Assembly (NCBI RefSeq): GCF_900104025.1
Contig: NZ_FNIQ01000004.1
Location: forward strand, 248,001 to 312,000
DNA from: Geodermatophilus sp. DSM 45219
GTDB lineage: Bacteria > Actinomycetota > Actinomycetes > Mycobacteriales > Geodermatophilaceae
DNA: 64,000 nt
Direction: 5' to 3'
The notes beneath the pieces are model-generated. The model was not told the DNA's origin, ran no database searches, and saw only the letters and a list, made by a program, of their open reading frames with translations. Numbering within the stretch: position 1 is the first letter of the stretch; the number at the start of each line of letters is the position of its first letter. Below are positions 43,405 to 53,006 of this stretch, piece after piece. The position numbers were made by a program, and so were the translations under genes.

Positions 43405-44412
<1,008 letters not shown>

Positions 44413-44418
44413 CGCCCC

Positions 44419-44428
44419 ACCGTAAGCT
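44419..44428. promoter_or_regulatory. Overlapping divergent promoters of selD and tRNASec
   Basis: TACGGT on the minus strand (44424-44419) ends 6 nt before the selD GTG. TAAGCT on the plus strand (44423-44428) ends 7 nt before the first base of the tRNA. The two -10 boxes share two base pairs, so the two sel genes are likely transcribed in competition or together. Confidence 0.5.
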
Positions 44429-44435
44429 CCTCCGC

Positions 44436-44531
44436 GGAGGCGTCAGGGTGTCTGGTGGCCCCCGCGGCCTCTAAAGCCGACGTGGCCGAGCATCTCGGTC
44501 AGGCGGGTTCGATTCCCGTCCGCCTCCGCCA
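44436..44531 (+). tRNA. selC: tRNA-Sec with anticodon CUA (reads UAG)
   Basis: A 96-nt tRNA including an encoded CCA end. The acceptor stem pairs GGAGGCG (44436-44442) with CGCCTCC (44521-44527), discriminator G. The anticodon stem CGGC/GCCG holds a 7-nt loop CTCTAAA, so positions 34-36 (44471-44473) are CUA, which pairs with UAG, with U33 and A37 as expected. The variable arm is long, 7 bp (44484-44490 with 44494-44500). The T-arm is normal (GGGTTCGATTCCC). The eighth acceptor position (T44443 opposite C44520) is unpaired. The flanking selD, selA and selB confirm the Sec identity; ordinary Sec tRNAs have UCA. Confidence 0.95.
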
Positions 44532-44546
44532 CCTCCTCCCGCGCCG

Positions 44547-44575
44547 CGGGCCGCCGTCCCCCGGACGGCGGCCCG
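44547..44575 (+). terminator. tRNASec terminator
   Basis: A perfect 13-bp stem (CGGGCCGCCGTCC at 44547-44559 with its complement at 44563-44575) and a 3-nt loop lies 16 nt after the tRNA. Confidence 0.75.
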
Positions 44576-44639
44576 CCCGCGGTGACCTGCCCGGTCGGAC
44601 AGTCGCGCACAACCCGGCGGGGGCCTACGGTTCCTGCGA

Positions 44640-44665
44640 GGGGACGTGACCCGCGTCACGTCCCC
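44640..44665. promoter_or_regulatory. Palindrome upstream of the selenoprotein gene, CRP/GlxR-like
   Basis: GGGGACGTGAC (44640-44650) and GTCACGTCCCC (44655-44665) form a perfect palindrome with a 4-nt spacer. Its centre reads CGTGA-N6-TCACG, close to the CRP/GlxR pattern TGTGA-N6-TCACA. It lies 54 nt before the start of the UAG-containing gene. It could instead be a hairpin in the leader. Confidence 0.5.
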
Positions 44666-44718
44666 GAGGCGGTGCCGACCGGTCCGTGGTGCCGCTCCTG
44701 AGCCCAGGGAGGCCACGC

Positions 44719-46419
44719 ATGACCGCACCACCGGAACCGGTCGGCACCGTCCACGTCGTCGACCCCTCGCCGCTGAACTGGCTGTTCATCACCTGGAACA
44801 CGATGGAGGAGCCGATCCGCATCGACGAGGCCGGGCGGGTCGTCTACTCGCTCGCCGAGTCCTCGGAGTGGCTCGACGAGCGCACCCTGGAGCTCCAGCT
44901 CCGCCGTGGCGTGCGCTTCCAGGACGGCGAGCACTTCACCGCGCACAACATCAAGCAGAACTTCGACGAGATGCAGCGGTGGGCCGCGCCCCACCCGCCG
45001 GGCACCTGGCTGAACTTCCCGGCGCCGGAGTCCACCGCCGAGGTCGTGGACGACCACACCCTGCGCTTCTCCTTCCCCGGCCCCGACGGGCTGGCCATCG
45101 GCAAGTTCCGCGGCTTCCACATCGCCAGCTCGGCCTTCTGGAACGGCAAGGACGCCCCCGGCTTCGGGTACAAGAAGTTCGGCTCCGGTGAGGGCCACTG
45201 GTAGGTGATCGACGAGCCGGGCCCGTGGGGCACCGGTCCGTTCACCCTGGTCCAGGGTGCCTCGTCGATCACCACCCGTCCCGCGATCATGAGCGCGGCG
45301 CCCTTCCGGGCGTCCTCGATCATCGAGAGCGAGCAGCGCGACCCGCAGGTCGTGCTGGAGGCCAACCGCGACCACTGGAACCGCGCCGCGCGCGGTCCCC
45401 GGATCGAGCGCGCCGTCTTCCGCAACGACCTGACACCCGACGAGGCGCTGCGCCTGGTGTGCGACACCGAGGGCGAGGTCGACATCGTCACCGAGGTGTC
45501 CCCGGCCGACGCCCAGCGGGTGCTGGACTCCGCGCACGCACGGCTGGTGGTGTCCGACGCCAACCGGGTGCTGGTCGGCATCCTCAACCGCGGCAGCGAC
45601 GCGCCGCTGCACGACGTCGAGGTGCGCCGGGCGCTGAACCGGGCCATCGACCGCGAGGCGGTCGTCGACCGGGGCCTGAACGGCTACGCCTCGGTCATCC
45701 CGGCCATGACGCCACCGTGGTGCAGCGGGTTCCCGGCGGGGGTGCAGCCGTACGAGCTCGACGCCGCGAGGGCGCGGGAGGCGTTCGCGCAGGCCGGCTG
45801 GCCGCCCCGCCGCCCGCTGCGGATCGCCACCCCGGAGTCCTTCGCGGCCATCGCGCACATCCTGGCGGCCGGCATCCGCTCCGCCCTCGACCTCATGGTC
45901 GAGGTGGTCGTGGTGCCGCCCGACCAGCTGCCGGCCGGCTCCCGCGCGCTGATCGAGAAGAAGCTCGACCTGCCGTGGGACGTGCTCCTGCACCCGTGGT
46001 TCGACCTGTCGTCGGAGGCGCCGCCGGCCGCGGTGCACCGGGAGTTCTTCGGCCTGGACGGCGCCTTCCGCGCCGGCCCACCGGACGACGGCTTCGACGC
46101 GCTGTTCGACGAGATGAAGGTGCAGCTGGACGGTGAGGCGCTGGTCGAGGTCGCCGAGCGGATCGACGCCTACGTGCACGACCAGGCGCTCGCACTGTTC
46201 ATCTGCGCACCGCAGGCGCTGTACGCGGTCAACGAGCACGTCACCTTCTCGCCGTACAAGACCACCTTCGAGCTCGCCGAGGTCACCGTCGACGAGCAGC
46301 ACTGGTCGGTCAGCGGCGGGCGCTCGGACACCGGCGGCGGGGACCTCGGCGACCGGACCGCCATCCGGCCGACGAGCGGCAAGCCGACCTTCTCGCAGGC
46401 CTCGGGGAACGCCTGCTGA
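44719..46419 (+). CDS. SBP_bac_5-like selenoprotein with in-frame UAG decoded as selenocysteine (Sec162)
   Basis: A 566-residue protein similar to family 5 (peptide/nickel) ABC substrate-binding proteins. Codons 1-161 end GEGHW, codon 162 is TAG (45202-45204), and the same frame continues VIDEPGPWGTGPFTL to 46419. Family motifs occur on both sides of the TAG (LRRGVRFQDGEHFTAHNIKQNF before; PDEALRLVCDTEGEVDIV and VRRALNRAIDREAVV after). So the gene is one unit with a single recoded codon. AGGGAGG at 44706-44712 supports the ATG at 44719. No signal peptide or lipobox is visible, so it seems cytosolic. It lies between tRNASec(CUA) and selA. The role is unknown; handling selenium or a metal is conceivable. 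If UAG is not recoded, a 161-aa truncated product results. Confidence 0.9.
45204..45246 (+). promoter_or_regulatory. Candidate bacterial SECIS hairpin directly after the UAG
   Basis: Starting at the last base of the UAG, GGTGA (45204-45208) pairs with TCACC (45242-45246). After a TCG bulge, 45212-45220 pairs with 45233-45241 (one A/C mismatch, one G-T pair). After a bulged A, GCCC (45221-45224) pairs with GGGC (45228-45231), leaving a GTG apical loop about 21 nt from the UAG. Position and the G-U in the loop fit a bacterial SECIS read by SelB. The fold was done by eye. Confidence 0.75.
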
Positions 46420-46466
46420 ACGCCTTGCCGCGGAGCCGGCCCGTCCGGTTCCGCGGCGGCCCCGCC

Positions 46467-46472
46467 TACCCT
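46467..46472 (+). promoter_or_regulatory. selA leaderless -10 box
   Basis: TACCCT lies 8 nt before the selA ATG, so selA-selB appear to have their own leaderless promoter separate from the selenoprotein gene. Confidence 0.45.
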
Positions 46473-46480
46473 CGGCGCCG

Positions 46481-47791
46481 ATGAGTCCCGACCCGCGGCG
46501 GCAGGTGCCCCGCACCGACGCGCTGCTCGCCGAGCCGCAGCTGGCCGCCGCCGCCGGCCGGCTGGGCCGCGACCTGGTCAAGGCCGCCGTCCAGGACGTG
46601 CAGCGGCGCATCCGGGACGGCGCCCTCGCCCCCGTCGGCGCGGTCGACGCCGTCCTGGGCGCGCTGCCGACGACGGCGAGCAGCCTGCGCCCGGTGCTCA
46701 ACGCGACCGGCGTCCTGGTGCACACGAACCTGGGTCGCGCGCCGCTGTCCCCGGCTGCCGTCGAGGCGGTCGTCGCCGCCAGCGGCACCACCGACGTGGA
46801 GCTCGACCTGGGCACCGGCCGCCGCGGCCCCCGGGGGGAGGCGGCGCTGGCCGCGCTGCGGGACGCCGTCCCCGCCGCAGAGGCCGCACTGGTGGTCAAC
46901 AACTGCGCCGCGGCGCTCGCCCTGGTCGCCACCGCGCTCGGCGGTGAGCTGGTCATCGCCCGCGGCGAGCTGGTCGAGATCGGCGACGGCTTCCGCATCC
47001 CCGAGCTGTTGGAGGCCACCGGCGCCCGGCTGCGCGAGGTGGGGACGACGAACCGCGTCGCGCTCGAGGACTACCGGCGCGCGCTGTCCGAGCACACCGG
47101 CGCGGTGCTCAAGGTGCACCCGTCGAACTTCGTCGTCCGCGGGTTCACCCGGGCGGTCGAGGTGGCCGAGCTCGCCGCCGGGCTGGCCGGGACCGGCCTC
47201 CCGCTGGTGGCCGACGTCGGCTCGGGGCTGCTGCGCCCGCACCCGGCGCTGCCCGGCGAGCCGGACCTGCAGACCACCCTCGCCGACGGCGCCGACCTGG
47301 TGCTGTGCAGCGGGGACAAGCTGCTCGGCGGGCCGCAGGCCGGGCTGGTGCTCGGCCGCGGCGATCTGGTGCAGCGGCTGCGGCGGCACCCGCTCTACCG
47401 GGCGTTCCGCGTGGACAAGACGACCCTCGCCGCGCTCGAGGCGACGCTGCGCGGCCCGCAGCCGCCGGTGCAGCAGATGCTCGCCGCCGACCTCGACAGC
47501 CTGCGCCGCCGCGCCGCCGCGCTCGCCGCCCGGCTGACCGCCGCCGGGCTCGACGCGGTCGCGGTCGACGCCGAGGCGCGCGTCGGCGGGGGAGGGGCGC
47601 CGGAGCACCCGCTGCCCAGCGCCGCGGTCTCGCTGCCCGCGGAGTTCGCGGTGCCGCTGCGCGCCGGCGCGCCGCCGGTGGTCGGGTACCTGGCCGGCGA
47701 CCGCACCCTGCTCGACCTGCGCAGCCTGCCGCCGTCGGACGACGAGGCGCTGGGGAGCGCGGTGCTGGAGGTGGCCCGCCGGTGGACGTGA
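46481..47791 (+). CDS. selA: L-seryl-tRNA(Sec) selenium transferase
   Basis: PLP enzyme that converts Ser-tRNASec to Sec-tRNASec using selenophosphate. The PLP lysine is Lys280 in CSGDKLLGGPQAG. The N-terminal tRNA-binding region and VLNATGVLVHTNLGRAPL are typical. Length is 436 aa. It must act on the unusual CUA tRNA encoded 2 kb upstream. selB starts inside its last codons. Confidence 0.96.
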   Translation: MSPDPRRQVPRTDALLAEPQLAAAAGRLGRDLVKAAVQDVQRRIRDGALAPVGAVDAVLGALPTTASSLRPVLNATGVLVHTNLGRAPLSPAAVEAVVAASGTTDVELDLGTGRRGPRGEAALAALRDAVPAAEAALVVNNCAAALALVATALGGELVIARGELVEIGDGFRIPELLEATGARLREVGTTNRVALEDYRRALSEHTGAVLKVHPSNFVVRGFTRAVEVAELAAGLAGTGLPLVADVGSGLLRPHPALPGEPDLQTTLADGADLVLCSGDKLLGGPQAGLVLGRGDLVQRLRRHPLYRAFRVDKTTLAALEATLRGPQPPVQQMLAADLDSLRRRAAALAARLTAAGLDAVAVDAEARVGGGGAPEHPLPSAAVSLPAEFAVPLRAGAPPVVGYLAGDRTLLDLRSLPPSDDEALGSAVLEVARRWT

Positions 47792-49542
47792 TCGCGACCG
47801 CGGGCCACGTCGACCACGGCAAGTCCACGCTGGTCCGCGCGCTCACCGGCATGGAGCCCGACCGGTGGGAGGAGGAGCGCCGCCGCGGGCTGACCATCGA
47901 CCTCGGCTTCGCCTGGACGACGCTGCCCTCGGGCCGCCGGCTCGCCGTCGTCGACGTCCCCGGGCACGAGCGGTTCGTCGGCAACATGCTGGCCGGCGTC
48001 GGCTCGGTGCCCGCCGCGCTGGTCGTCGTCGCGGCGGACGACGGCTGGTCGGCGCAGACCGCCGAGCACGTCGCCGTCCTCGACGCCCTCGGCGTGCGGC
48101 ACGCGCTGCTCGCCGTGACCAAGGCCGACCTCGCCGACCCCGCGCCGGTGCTCGCCGACGTGCGCGACCGGCTGGCCGCCACGTCGTTGGGGACCGGGCC
48201 GCTCCGCGAGGTTCCCGGGGTGGCGGTCAGCGCCGCCACGGGCGCGGGTGTGCCCGAGGTCGTCGCCGCGCTCGAGGCGCTGCTGGCGGGGCTGCCCGCC
48301 CCCGACCGGGACGCGCCGGTGCGGCTGTGGATCGACCGCGCCTTCCCGGTCAAGGGCGCCGGCACGGTGGTCACCGGCACGCTGGCCGCCGGCCGCGTCG
48401 GTGCCGGCGACCGGCTGCAACTCGGCGGGCGGGAGGTCGGCGTCCGCGGCGTGCACGCGCTGGGGCAGCCGGTCGAGCGGGCCGAGGCCACCGCACGGGT
48501 GGCGCTCAACCTGCGCGGGGTCGCCGTCGAGGACCTGTCCCGCGGCGACGCGCTGCTCACGCCGGGCGCGTTCCGCTCGACCGCCGAGCTCGACGTGACC
48601 CTCGCCCGCGCCGTCGAGGACCGGTTGCCCGCCGAAGTCGTCGTGCACGTCGGCTCGGCGGCCGTCCCGGCCCGGCTGCGCCCCCTGGAGGGGGCGGCCG
48701 TCCGGCTGCGGCTGGCCACCCCGCTGCCGCTGCGGGTCGGCGACCGGCTGCTGCTGCGCGACCCCGGCGCCCGCCGGGTGCTCGGCGCCGACGTGCGGGA
48801 CGTCGACCCGCCGGAGCTGCGCCGCCGCGGGGCCGCCCGCCTCCGGGCCGAGGAGCTGGCCGCCCAGCCGACCGGTCCGGCCGGCGCCGCGGCCGAGCTC
48901 GCCCGCCGCCGCTTCGTGCGGGCCGCGGACTTCGCCGCGATGGGCTGGCCGACCCCGGACGACGCCACGGCGGTGGGGCCCTGGCTGCTCGCCCCCGGGC
49001 TGGTCGAGGAGCTGGCCGGGAAGCTGCCCGCGGTCGTCGCCCGCTACCGGCAGCTGCGCCCGCTGGAACCGGGGCCGCCGGTGGCCGTCGTCCGCCGCGC
49101 GCTGGAGCTGCCGGACGACGAGCTGGTGCCGGCCGTCGTCCGTGCTCCGCTGGCCCTGCGCGAGGGCCGGGTGGCCGTCGCGACCGCCGGGCTGCCCGCG
49201 TGGGTGCAGCAGGCCGTCGACGCGATCCGCGCCCGGCTGGCCGCCGACCCGTTCGCCGCGCCCGACGCCGACGAGCTGCGCGCCGCGGGGCTCGGGCCGC
49301 GGGAGCTCGCGGCGGCCGTCCGCGACGGTCAGCTGGTGAAGGTCGCCGACGGGGTCTACCTGGCCCCCGGGGTCGAGGAGCAGGCGCGGGCCCGGCTGGC
49401 CGGCGTCCCGGCGCCGTTCACGCTCAGCCGGGCCCGCTCGGCGTGGGGCACCAGCCGGCGGGTCGCCGTCCCGCTGATGGAGTGGCTGGACGCGCGCGGG
49501 GTGACCGAGCGGCTGCCCGACGACACCCGCCGGCTGCGCTGA
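47782..49542 (+). CDS. selB: Selenocysteine-specific translation elongation factor
   Basis: EF-Tu-like factor that carries Sec-tRNASec to the recoded codon by binding the SECIS. The G domain has GHVDHGKST (residues 8-16), DVPGHERFVGNML and TKAD. Domains II-III follow, and the C-terminal half carries the winged helices that bind SECIS RNA. Length is 586 aa. GTG at 47782 gives the typical VDVIATAGH opening; GTG at 47788 would overlap the selA stop by only 4 nt and is an alternative. In this organism it should serve UAG rather than UGA. Confidence 0.95.
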   Translation: MDVIATAGHVDHGKSTLVRALTGMEPDRWEEERRRGLTIDLGFAWTTLPSGRRLAVVDVPGHERFVGNMLAGVGSVPAALVVVAADDGWSAQTAEHVAVLDALGVRHALLAVTKADLADPAPVLADVRDRLAATSLGTGPLREVPGVAVSAATGAGVPEVVAALEALLAGLPAPDRDAPVRLWIDRAFPVKGAGTVVTGTLAAGRVGAGDRLQLGGREVGVRGVHALGQPVERAEATARVALNLRGVAVEDLSRGDALLTPGAFRSTAELDVTLARAVEDRLPAEVVVHVGSAAVPARLRPLEGAAVRLRLATPLPLRVGDRLLLRDPGARRVLGADVRDVDPPELRRRGAARLRAEELAAQPTGPAGAAAELARRRFVRAADFAAMGWPTPDDATAVGPWLLAPGLVEELAGKLPAVVARYRQLRPLEPGPPVAVVRRALELPDDELVPAVVRAPLALREGRVAVATAGLPAWVQQAVDAIRARLAADPFAAPDADELRAAGLGPRELAAAVRDGQLVKVADGVYLAPGVEEQARARLAGVPAPFTLSRARSAWGTSRRVAVPLMEWLDARGVTERLPDDTRRLR

Positions 49543-51990: not shown

Positions 51991-52002
51991 TTATCGCGAT
52001 AA
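51991..52002. promoter_or_regulatory. Perfect 12-bp palindrome TTATCGCGATAA, candidate operator
   Basis: AT-rich flanks make this stand out in very GC-rich DNA. It lies 11 nt after the hemW stop and 86 nt before the ABC ATPase GTG, where a repressor of the exporter cassette would bind. A hairpin (TCCCGCA/TGCGGGA, 52046-52063) follows. The binding protein is unknown. Confidence 0.5.
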
Positions 52003-52088
52003 TGGCGGCCTCGGGGCTGACGGATGTCAGGTCGGGGTCGCGACGTCCCGCACTACTGCGGGATCGGGCCGGGCCAGAGGCTGGTCCC

Positions 52089-53006
52089 GTGCCCACCCGA
52101 AGCGCTCTGGAGGTCCGCGACCTCACCGTCCGCTACGGCGACACCGTCGCCGTCGGCGGCCTCGACCTGCACCTGCGCACCGGCGAGACCGTCGCACTGC
52201 TCGGCCCCAACGGCGCCGGGAAGTCGACGGTGGTCAACGCCGTCCTCGGCCTGGTCCCGTCCACCGGCTCGGTGCTGGTGCTCGGCCGCACGCCCGCCGC
52301 GGCCGTCCGGGCCGGCTGCGTCGGCGCCATGCTGCAGCACGGCGGGCTGCCCGGCGAGGCCCGCGTCGGGGAGGTCGTCGAGCTGGTCCGGCGCAGCTTC
52401 GGGCGGGCCGGGCGAGCGATGGCGTGGCCGCTGGACGACCTCGTCGTCAACGCCGGCATCGAGGGCCTGCTCGGCCGCCCGGTCGACGCCCTCTCCGGCG
52501 GTCAGCGCCAGCGCGTGCTGCTCGCCCTCGCGCTGGCCGGCGGGCCACCGCTGCTGCTGCTCGACGAGCCCACCTCGGCCATGGACGTCGAGGGGCGCCG
52601 CGCCTTCTGGACGACGATGCGCCGGCTCGCCGACCGCGGCACCACCGTGGTCTTCGCCACCCACCACCTCGAGGAGGCCGACGCCGTCGCCGACCGCGTG
52701 GTCGTGGTCGCCGGCGGGCAGGTCGTCGCCGACGGCACCGCCGCACAGGTGAAGGCCGGCACCTCCGGGCGCACCGTCACCTTCACCGCCGCCGGGGGCG
52801 CCTTCGACGGCCTCCCCGGCGTGACCGCGACCGAGCGGTCCGGCGACCGGGTGGTCCTCACCACCGGCGACGTCGAGGCCACCCTCCGCGCGCTGCTGGC
52901 CGCCGGCCGGCGGCTGCCCGACCTCGACGTCCGTGGCGCCAGCCTGGAGGAGGCGGTGCTCTCCCTGACCAGCCGTCCCCGCACCCCGATCGGAGCCGAC
53001 CGATGA
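52089..53006 (+). CDS. ABC exporter ATP-binding protein
   Basis: 305-aa ATPase with Walker A GPNGAGKST, signature LSGGQRQR, Walker B LLLLDEPTSAMD and the H-loop in FATHH. A C-terminal extension typical of drug or antibiotic exporters follows. The GTG at 52089 begins just before ALEVRDLTVRYGD; an in-frame ATG at 52002 would add 29 residues without homology. It overlaps the permease gene by 4 nt. Substrate unknown. Confidence 0.9.
   Translation: MPTRSALEVRDLTVRYGDTVAVGGLDLHLRTGETVALLGPNGAGKSTVVNAVLGLVPSTGSVLVLGRTPAAAVRAGCVGAMLQHGGLPGEARVGEVVELVRRSFGRAGRAMAWPLDDLVVNAGIEGLLGRPVDALSGGQRQRVLLALALAGGPPLLLLDEPTSAMDVEGRRAFWTTMRRLADRGTTVVFATHHLEEADAVADRVVVVAGGQVVADGTAAQVKAGTSGRTVTFTAAGGAFDGLPGVTATERSGDRVVLTTGDVEATLRALLAAGRRLPDLDVRGASLEEAVLSLTSRPRTPIGADR

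Follow-up and report, generated by a model that had tools for sequence, protein, structure and literature searches.

A predicted UAG-encoded selenoprotein with a family-5 substrate-binding fold in the sel locus of Geodermatophilus sp. DSM 45219

We analysed a stretch of 64,000 nucleotides from Geodermatophilus sp. DSM 45219 (the window), in which an in-frame TAG lies within a gene resembling those for family-5 substrate-binding proteins (SBPs). The reading that we favour, with a probability of about 0.92, is that this TAG, at codon 162, is decoded as selenocysteine (Sec). The adjoining tRNASec(CUA) would insert Sec after delivery by SelB, aided by a predicted SECIS hairpin just 3' of the codon, and the product would be a single 566-residue protein with a predicted family-5 substrate-binding fold. 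Its workplace is probably the cytosol, as judged from N-termini inspected by eye. Sec at residue 162 had been proposed in a preliminary description of this DNA, and the proposal is strongly supported: all 44 copies have a stop at this codon, stop and tRNASec anticodon fit each other in 37 of the 38 checkable copies, and the formate dehydrogenase gene of this genome likewise carries a TAG at its Sec site. We predict from sequence that the gene belongs to a new selenoprotein family, one that gene finders have split in two.

The interrupted gene and its locus

Translation confirmed that the frame at 44719-46419 contains one TAG and no frameshift, as previously described, and the Rfam and NCBIfam matches place the gene between tRNASec(CUA) and selA (Table 1). 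The genes selA, selB and selD and tRNASec make up a complete sel set within 43405-49542 of the window. Eight neighbouring open reading frames of the window were tested, among which we found one lone ABC ATPase (52002-53003) and no permease gene.

Table 1. Features of the sel locus, in positions of the window
Feature	Position	Strand	Details and basis
selD	43405-44412	-	TIGR00476, 386.3 bits (cut-off 125)
tRNASec	44436-44527	+	anticodon CUA at 44471-44473; Rfam RF01852, ARAGORN position
AGGGAGG, likely ribosome-binding site	44706-44712	+	6 bases upstream of ATG; read from sequence
Family-5 SBP-like gene, predicted to contain Sec	44719-46419	+	566 residues, terminal TGA; translation, Pfam, fold
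TAG codon 162, predicted Sec codon	45202-45204	+	within GEGHW-U-VID.PGPW; translation, comparison of copies
Predicted SECIS hairpin	45211-45242	+	directly 3' of TAG; 3-base loop at 45225-45227 (bases 24-26, with the T of TAG as base 1)
Gly-Asn-Ala-Cys C-terminal tail	46405-46416	+	conserved within clade A; alignment
selA	46481-47791	+	NCBIfam TIGR00474, 410 bits (cut-off 267.9)
selB	47782-49542	+	overlaps the end of selA; TIGR00475, 289.7 bits (cut-off 242.25)

The tRNASec(CUA) of the window scores 65.1 bits against its Rfam model (gathering score 47) and is the best Rfam match of the whole-genome search. In another genome of the same genus (G005), a tRNASec with anticodon UCA (81.8 bits; L066, G005:C17, 1169-1263, minus strand) occurs beside a lower-scoring one of 65.3 bits; perhaps this pair reflects two Sec codes within one genome, or foreign DNA.

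Formate dehydrogenase provides a comparison within the same genome. The alpha subunit gene (G000:C5:819900-822926; TIGR01553, 946.2 bits with its neighbours in the frame included, cut-off 814.2) contains one in-frame TAG, in ARI-U-HSATVPGL, with a hairpin of loop GGUCU directly after it. The Sec site thus reads U-H-S-A, with Ala as its fourth residue; the motif given for this enzyme in a review table is U-H-x-P (table of PMC13188914).

Stop codon and tRNASec anticodon across relatives

Copies of the gene were gathered by whole-genome searches that read through stops and by a scan of named genome contigs. In the genome scans, matches were accepted at E cut-offs of 1e-50 or 1e-60, and a sample of the matching genomes was taken (10 of 98, 9 of 397, 4 of 297 and 24 of 396 in the respective scans). 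Forty-four copies from 40 genomes cover the Sec codon, and each carries a stop at that position: 13 TAG, 30 TGA and 1 TAA. Sense codons were found in none of them. A stop at the identical codon in every copy is more than chance would give. Additionally, the sequence around the stop, which in the preliminary description had looked conserved, proved invariant as GEGHW-U-VID.PGPW in all 14 aligned full-length rows.

The copies fall into three groups. The clade of the window, clade A, comprises 10 copies (6 TAG, 4 TGA); its named members are the TAG copy of Modestobacter sp. DSM 44400 and the copies of Geodermatophilus sp. YIM 151500, Geodermatophilus sp. TF02-6, one Geodermatophilaceae MAG and one Pseudonocardiaceae MAG. 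The eight copies of clade B (7 TAG, 1 TAA) have about 47% identity to the protein of the window. The third group consists of 25 TGA copies from 23 genomes of a single family (f32), together with the TGA copy of genome G454.

We searched all 40 genomes for tRNASec and found it in 17 of 17 genomes outside f32 and in 18 of 23 within it. The five f32 genomes in which none was found are drafts, which hold six TGA copies, and the f32 set is 60-98% complete. The anticodon is CUA in all 11 genomes with TAG copies, and UCA in the remaining six genomes outside f32 and in the 18 f32 genomes. As a result, the stop fits the anticodon (TAG with CUA, TGA with UCA) in 37 of the 38 checkable copies, 13 with TAG and 24 with TGA, a count that overstates the number of events since close copies are not independent. 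The sole mismatch is the TAA copy of G032, a clade B genome with tRNASec(UCA); this copy looks decayed, its frame being broken near residue 26 and a TAG standing at 472. On a tree of 41 of the 44 copies and one outgroup, TAG requires two changes and TGA likewise, both forced by the starred branches, and none of 500 shuffles gave so low a number. Thus, in each of two paralogous lines the codon changed along with the code. In one clade B copy (genome G016; L048, 9708-11336) TAG serves as terminator and also occupies the Sec position, so that sequence context must separate the two roles.

Public annotation treats the sequence as two genes, a 161-residue piece ending at the TAG and a 404-residue piece starting from the adjacent GTG. 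We consider two separate genes very improbable, even though each of the 13 TAG copies has GTG right behind the stop and most listed database entries begin there. Three database searches yielded 244 listed proteins (the best 120 of 915, of 289 and of 177 matches), and among these matches listed 234 begin at codon 163, which is the annotation split that had been predicted for a misread Sec codon. Of the other ten, seven start at codon 163 or somewhat beyond it, with different letters, and three reach upstream of it. However, codon 163 is not a usual start in 19 of the 44 copies, where it is GCG, GCC, GCA, ATA, GTA or ATT, and the stop sits within one fold and within the best-conserved stretch of the protein. 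Moreover, the identity of the stop tracks the tRNASec anticodon, a behaviour not required of a plain terminator.

An inserted residue other than Sec is likewise highly improbable in our view. A tRNASec or other suppressor might read TAG and insert serine at low selenium, pyrrolysine, or a near-cognate Gly or Gln, and two observations could be taken in its favour: the ARAGORN label for 44436-44527 is tRNA-Pyl, and Gly occupies the site in two distant relatives. Against these, Rfam scores the tRNA as tRNASec, the TGA-using relatives have an ordinary tRNASec(UCA), and the window holds selA, selB and selD. The pyrrolysine version is contradicted by the Rfam score and by PylS, which stays below its cut-off in all 11 TAG-using genomes including that of the window (best score 25.8 bits against 178.15).

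Decay of the gene through a nonsense mutation is, to our mind, extremely improbable. Broken copies do occur in relatives: besides that of G032, the copy of the close relative G024 loses its frame near residue 228, and that of G014, also close, shows an inner deletion and a shift. In G701 (L061) a large inner deletion joins approximately residue 217 in frame to a tail of the KPGF-GNAC type, so that this copy retains both the Sec region and the tail. Yet all 44 copies, from three clades, share the position of the stop, and the frame past it is conserved over 400 codons. In five comparisons, synonymous differences were abundant before the stop as well as after it; after the stop, non-synonymous changes exceed synonymous ones in the more distant comparisons.

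Hairpin, protein fold and gene neighbours

The hairpin after the TAG is probably a SECIS, a prediction from its position and from local synonymous constraint. Its loop lies at bases 24-26 from the start of the stop, compared with 22-26 for formate dehydrogenase. In the synonymous test of f32, which used 20 of the 25 copies, the top 8 of 149 test windows have their first residue within 151-159 of the query (Sec being residue 153; p = 0.014). Within clade A (7 of 10 copies), 11 of 19 codons in the hairpin region are unchanged versus 90 of 274 elsewhere (p = 0.025), and clade B (6 of 8 copies) gave a weak signal, with 8 of 14 hairpin-region codons unchanged (p = 0.13). The folding energies of 19 copies were not exceptional relative to synonymous shuffles (z from -1.96 to +1.48), and in only one of the 19 was the energy matched by fewer than 5% of shuffles. 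At fixed structure we counted no compensatory pairs in the clade of the window and one, a slight signal, in clade B. Rfam at E up to 10 returned no SECIS at the hairpin and chance families only, the best of which, Virus_CITE_4 on the minus strand (E = 0.00037), fell short of its gathering score.

That the protein has an SBP fold, as the preliminary description suggested, is well supported. The Pfam model SBP_bac_5 (PF00496; gathering score 32.4) matches the part before the stop with 54.8 bits, the part after it with 81.7 and the joined protein with 135.5, and the full-length predicted fold is that of a family-5 substrate-binding protein. Confidence is low around the Sec loop, with a mean pLDDT of 56 for residues 151-160 and 70 for residues 161-170. 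Among the NCBIfam models, those for nickel and peptide binders come closest, all with scores far below their cut-offs. The secreted, transporter-bound role that such a fold might imply is doubtful, since the N-termini examined show no signal peptide by eye and the tested neighbours include no permease gene. These features would separate the protein from NikA, DppA and GsiB, with which it shares the Pfam match and the full-length fold but which differ from it in lacking a Sec in the middle of the protein.

As to what the protein does, we can offer only a tentative proposal. Sec162 would sit on the poorly modelled loop just upstream of the GTGPF strand, where its selenol could either bind or reduce a small ligand such as a thiol, a peptide or a metal ion. 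In clade A, the Cys of the C-terminal Gly-Asn-Ala-Cys tail would then form a selenenylsulfide with Sec162 and so resolve it.

Gene neighbours differ between clades and point to no shared partner; in the loci read, no partner gene was common to all clades. Within clade A, the Geodermatophilaceae loci that were read, including that of a TGA-using MAG (L022), have the gene closely behind tRNASec. In Pseudonocardiaceae it lies away from the sel genes, and locus L023 has no tRNASec within 13.6 kb. All five f32 loci read (L150-L154) have a gene of the LarAH (nickel-pincer hydroxyacid isomerase) family shortly upstream on the same strand, and one f32 member of that family passes an NCBIfam LarAH14/15/16 model. 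In two TGA genomes, a conserved six-gene set lies upstream of the Sec gene (L156, 4211-9567; L023, 676-5948); two of its members come from one family, and one of this pair (L156:5962-7842) has a Tubulin_2 match just over the cut-off. The window contains neither a LarAH-family gene nor the tubulin-like operon. In two clade B loci an MRJP/SGL-type gene lies close to the Sec gene, and one database protein (P0195) runs from the post-stop fragment into a gluconolactonase-like gene.

Origin of the Sec codon and relation to known selenoproteins

The preliminary description had expected homologues with Cys or Sec at position 162 and no other residue there. The Sec side of this expectation held, with a stop in every copy, and the Cys side failed: Cys was absent from the position in the 44 copies and in the three listed proteins that extend upstream. 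Two of these three, P0121 and P0151, are the distant relatives that can be read at the site, and both have Gly. P0151 comes from a Tectomicrobia MAG and has a hydrophobic N-terminus, the P0121 record has an adaptor-like N-terminus, and the third protein, P0212, is too garbled to read there. By the terms of that description, a residue other than Cys or Sec would refute the Sec reading; in our judgement, the tracking of codon and anticodon outweighs Gly in two distant relatives, and homologues with Cys are usual for selenoprotein genes rather than part of their definition.

The E cut-offs and the sampling of genomes mean that distant Cys forms may have been missed. Either Cys forms lie beyond the limits of the search or Sec may derive from Gly by a change of one base, the latter on the thin basis of two sequences. 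A possible, though less than even, history is that an originally secreted nickel or peptide binder, having lost its export signal, gave rise, through a change of GGA to TGA, to a family in which Sec is obligate and which would now serve as a cytosolic selenium-dependent carrier of a ligand or metal, with UGA then changing to UAG twice, in two paralogous lines. A 2025 paper states that Cys homologues now seem to exist for every known selenoprotein (PMC12013277). Protein A of glycine reductase, GrdA, is a parallel as a selenoprotein family once described without a Cys form (passage in PMC1794560), but for GrdA, too, homologues with Cys have become known since then (PMC12013277), whereas the SBP family has Gly in two relatives.

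In Geodermatophilaceae, UAG-encoded Sec has been described for formate dehydrogenase and for a protein with the UGSC motif (Mukai et al. 2016, cited through PMC5330540), as well as for AhpC (PMC5330540). The present case resembles these in bacterial family, tRNASec(CUA) and in-frame TAG; it differs in that the passages of PMC5330540 consulted name formate dehydrogenase, UGSC and AhpC and no substrate-binding protein. Two Sec-containing substrate-binding subunits of ABC transporters, SaoX (NF040735) and SaoB (NF040727), are entered in a 2026 table of 119 prokaryotic selenoprotein families and subfamilies (PMC13188914). They share the Sec-containing substrate-binding character but have the motifs UxP and CUxxT (excerpt of PMC13188914) in place of HW-U-VID, and no transporter genes were found alongside the SBP family. 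The SaoX and SaoB NCBIfam models gave no match at E up to 1 to the four proteins scanned. The SBP family is absent from the 119 entries of the table (PMC13188914, as excerpted), and we found no prior report of it in the open-licence literature, a scope outside which the founding UAG-Sec paper (Mukai et al. 2016) falls.

A selenoprotein family on a substrate-binding fold would be overlooked by programs that rely on Cys homologues, a limit stated in PMC12013277, and public protein sets carry the family as fragments. With the Cys form missing and Gly present in two distant relatives, the usual rule of selenoprotein origin becomes testable in this family. Finally, codon and tRNASec anticodon shifted jointly in two paralogous lines, which amounts to a natural experiment on how a change of code is carried through.
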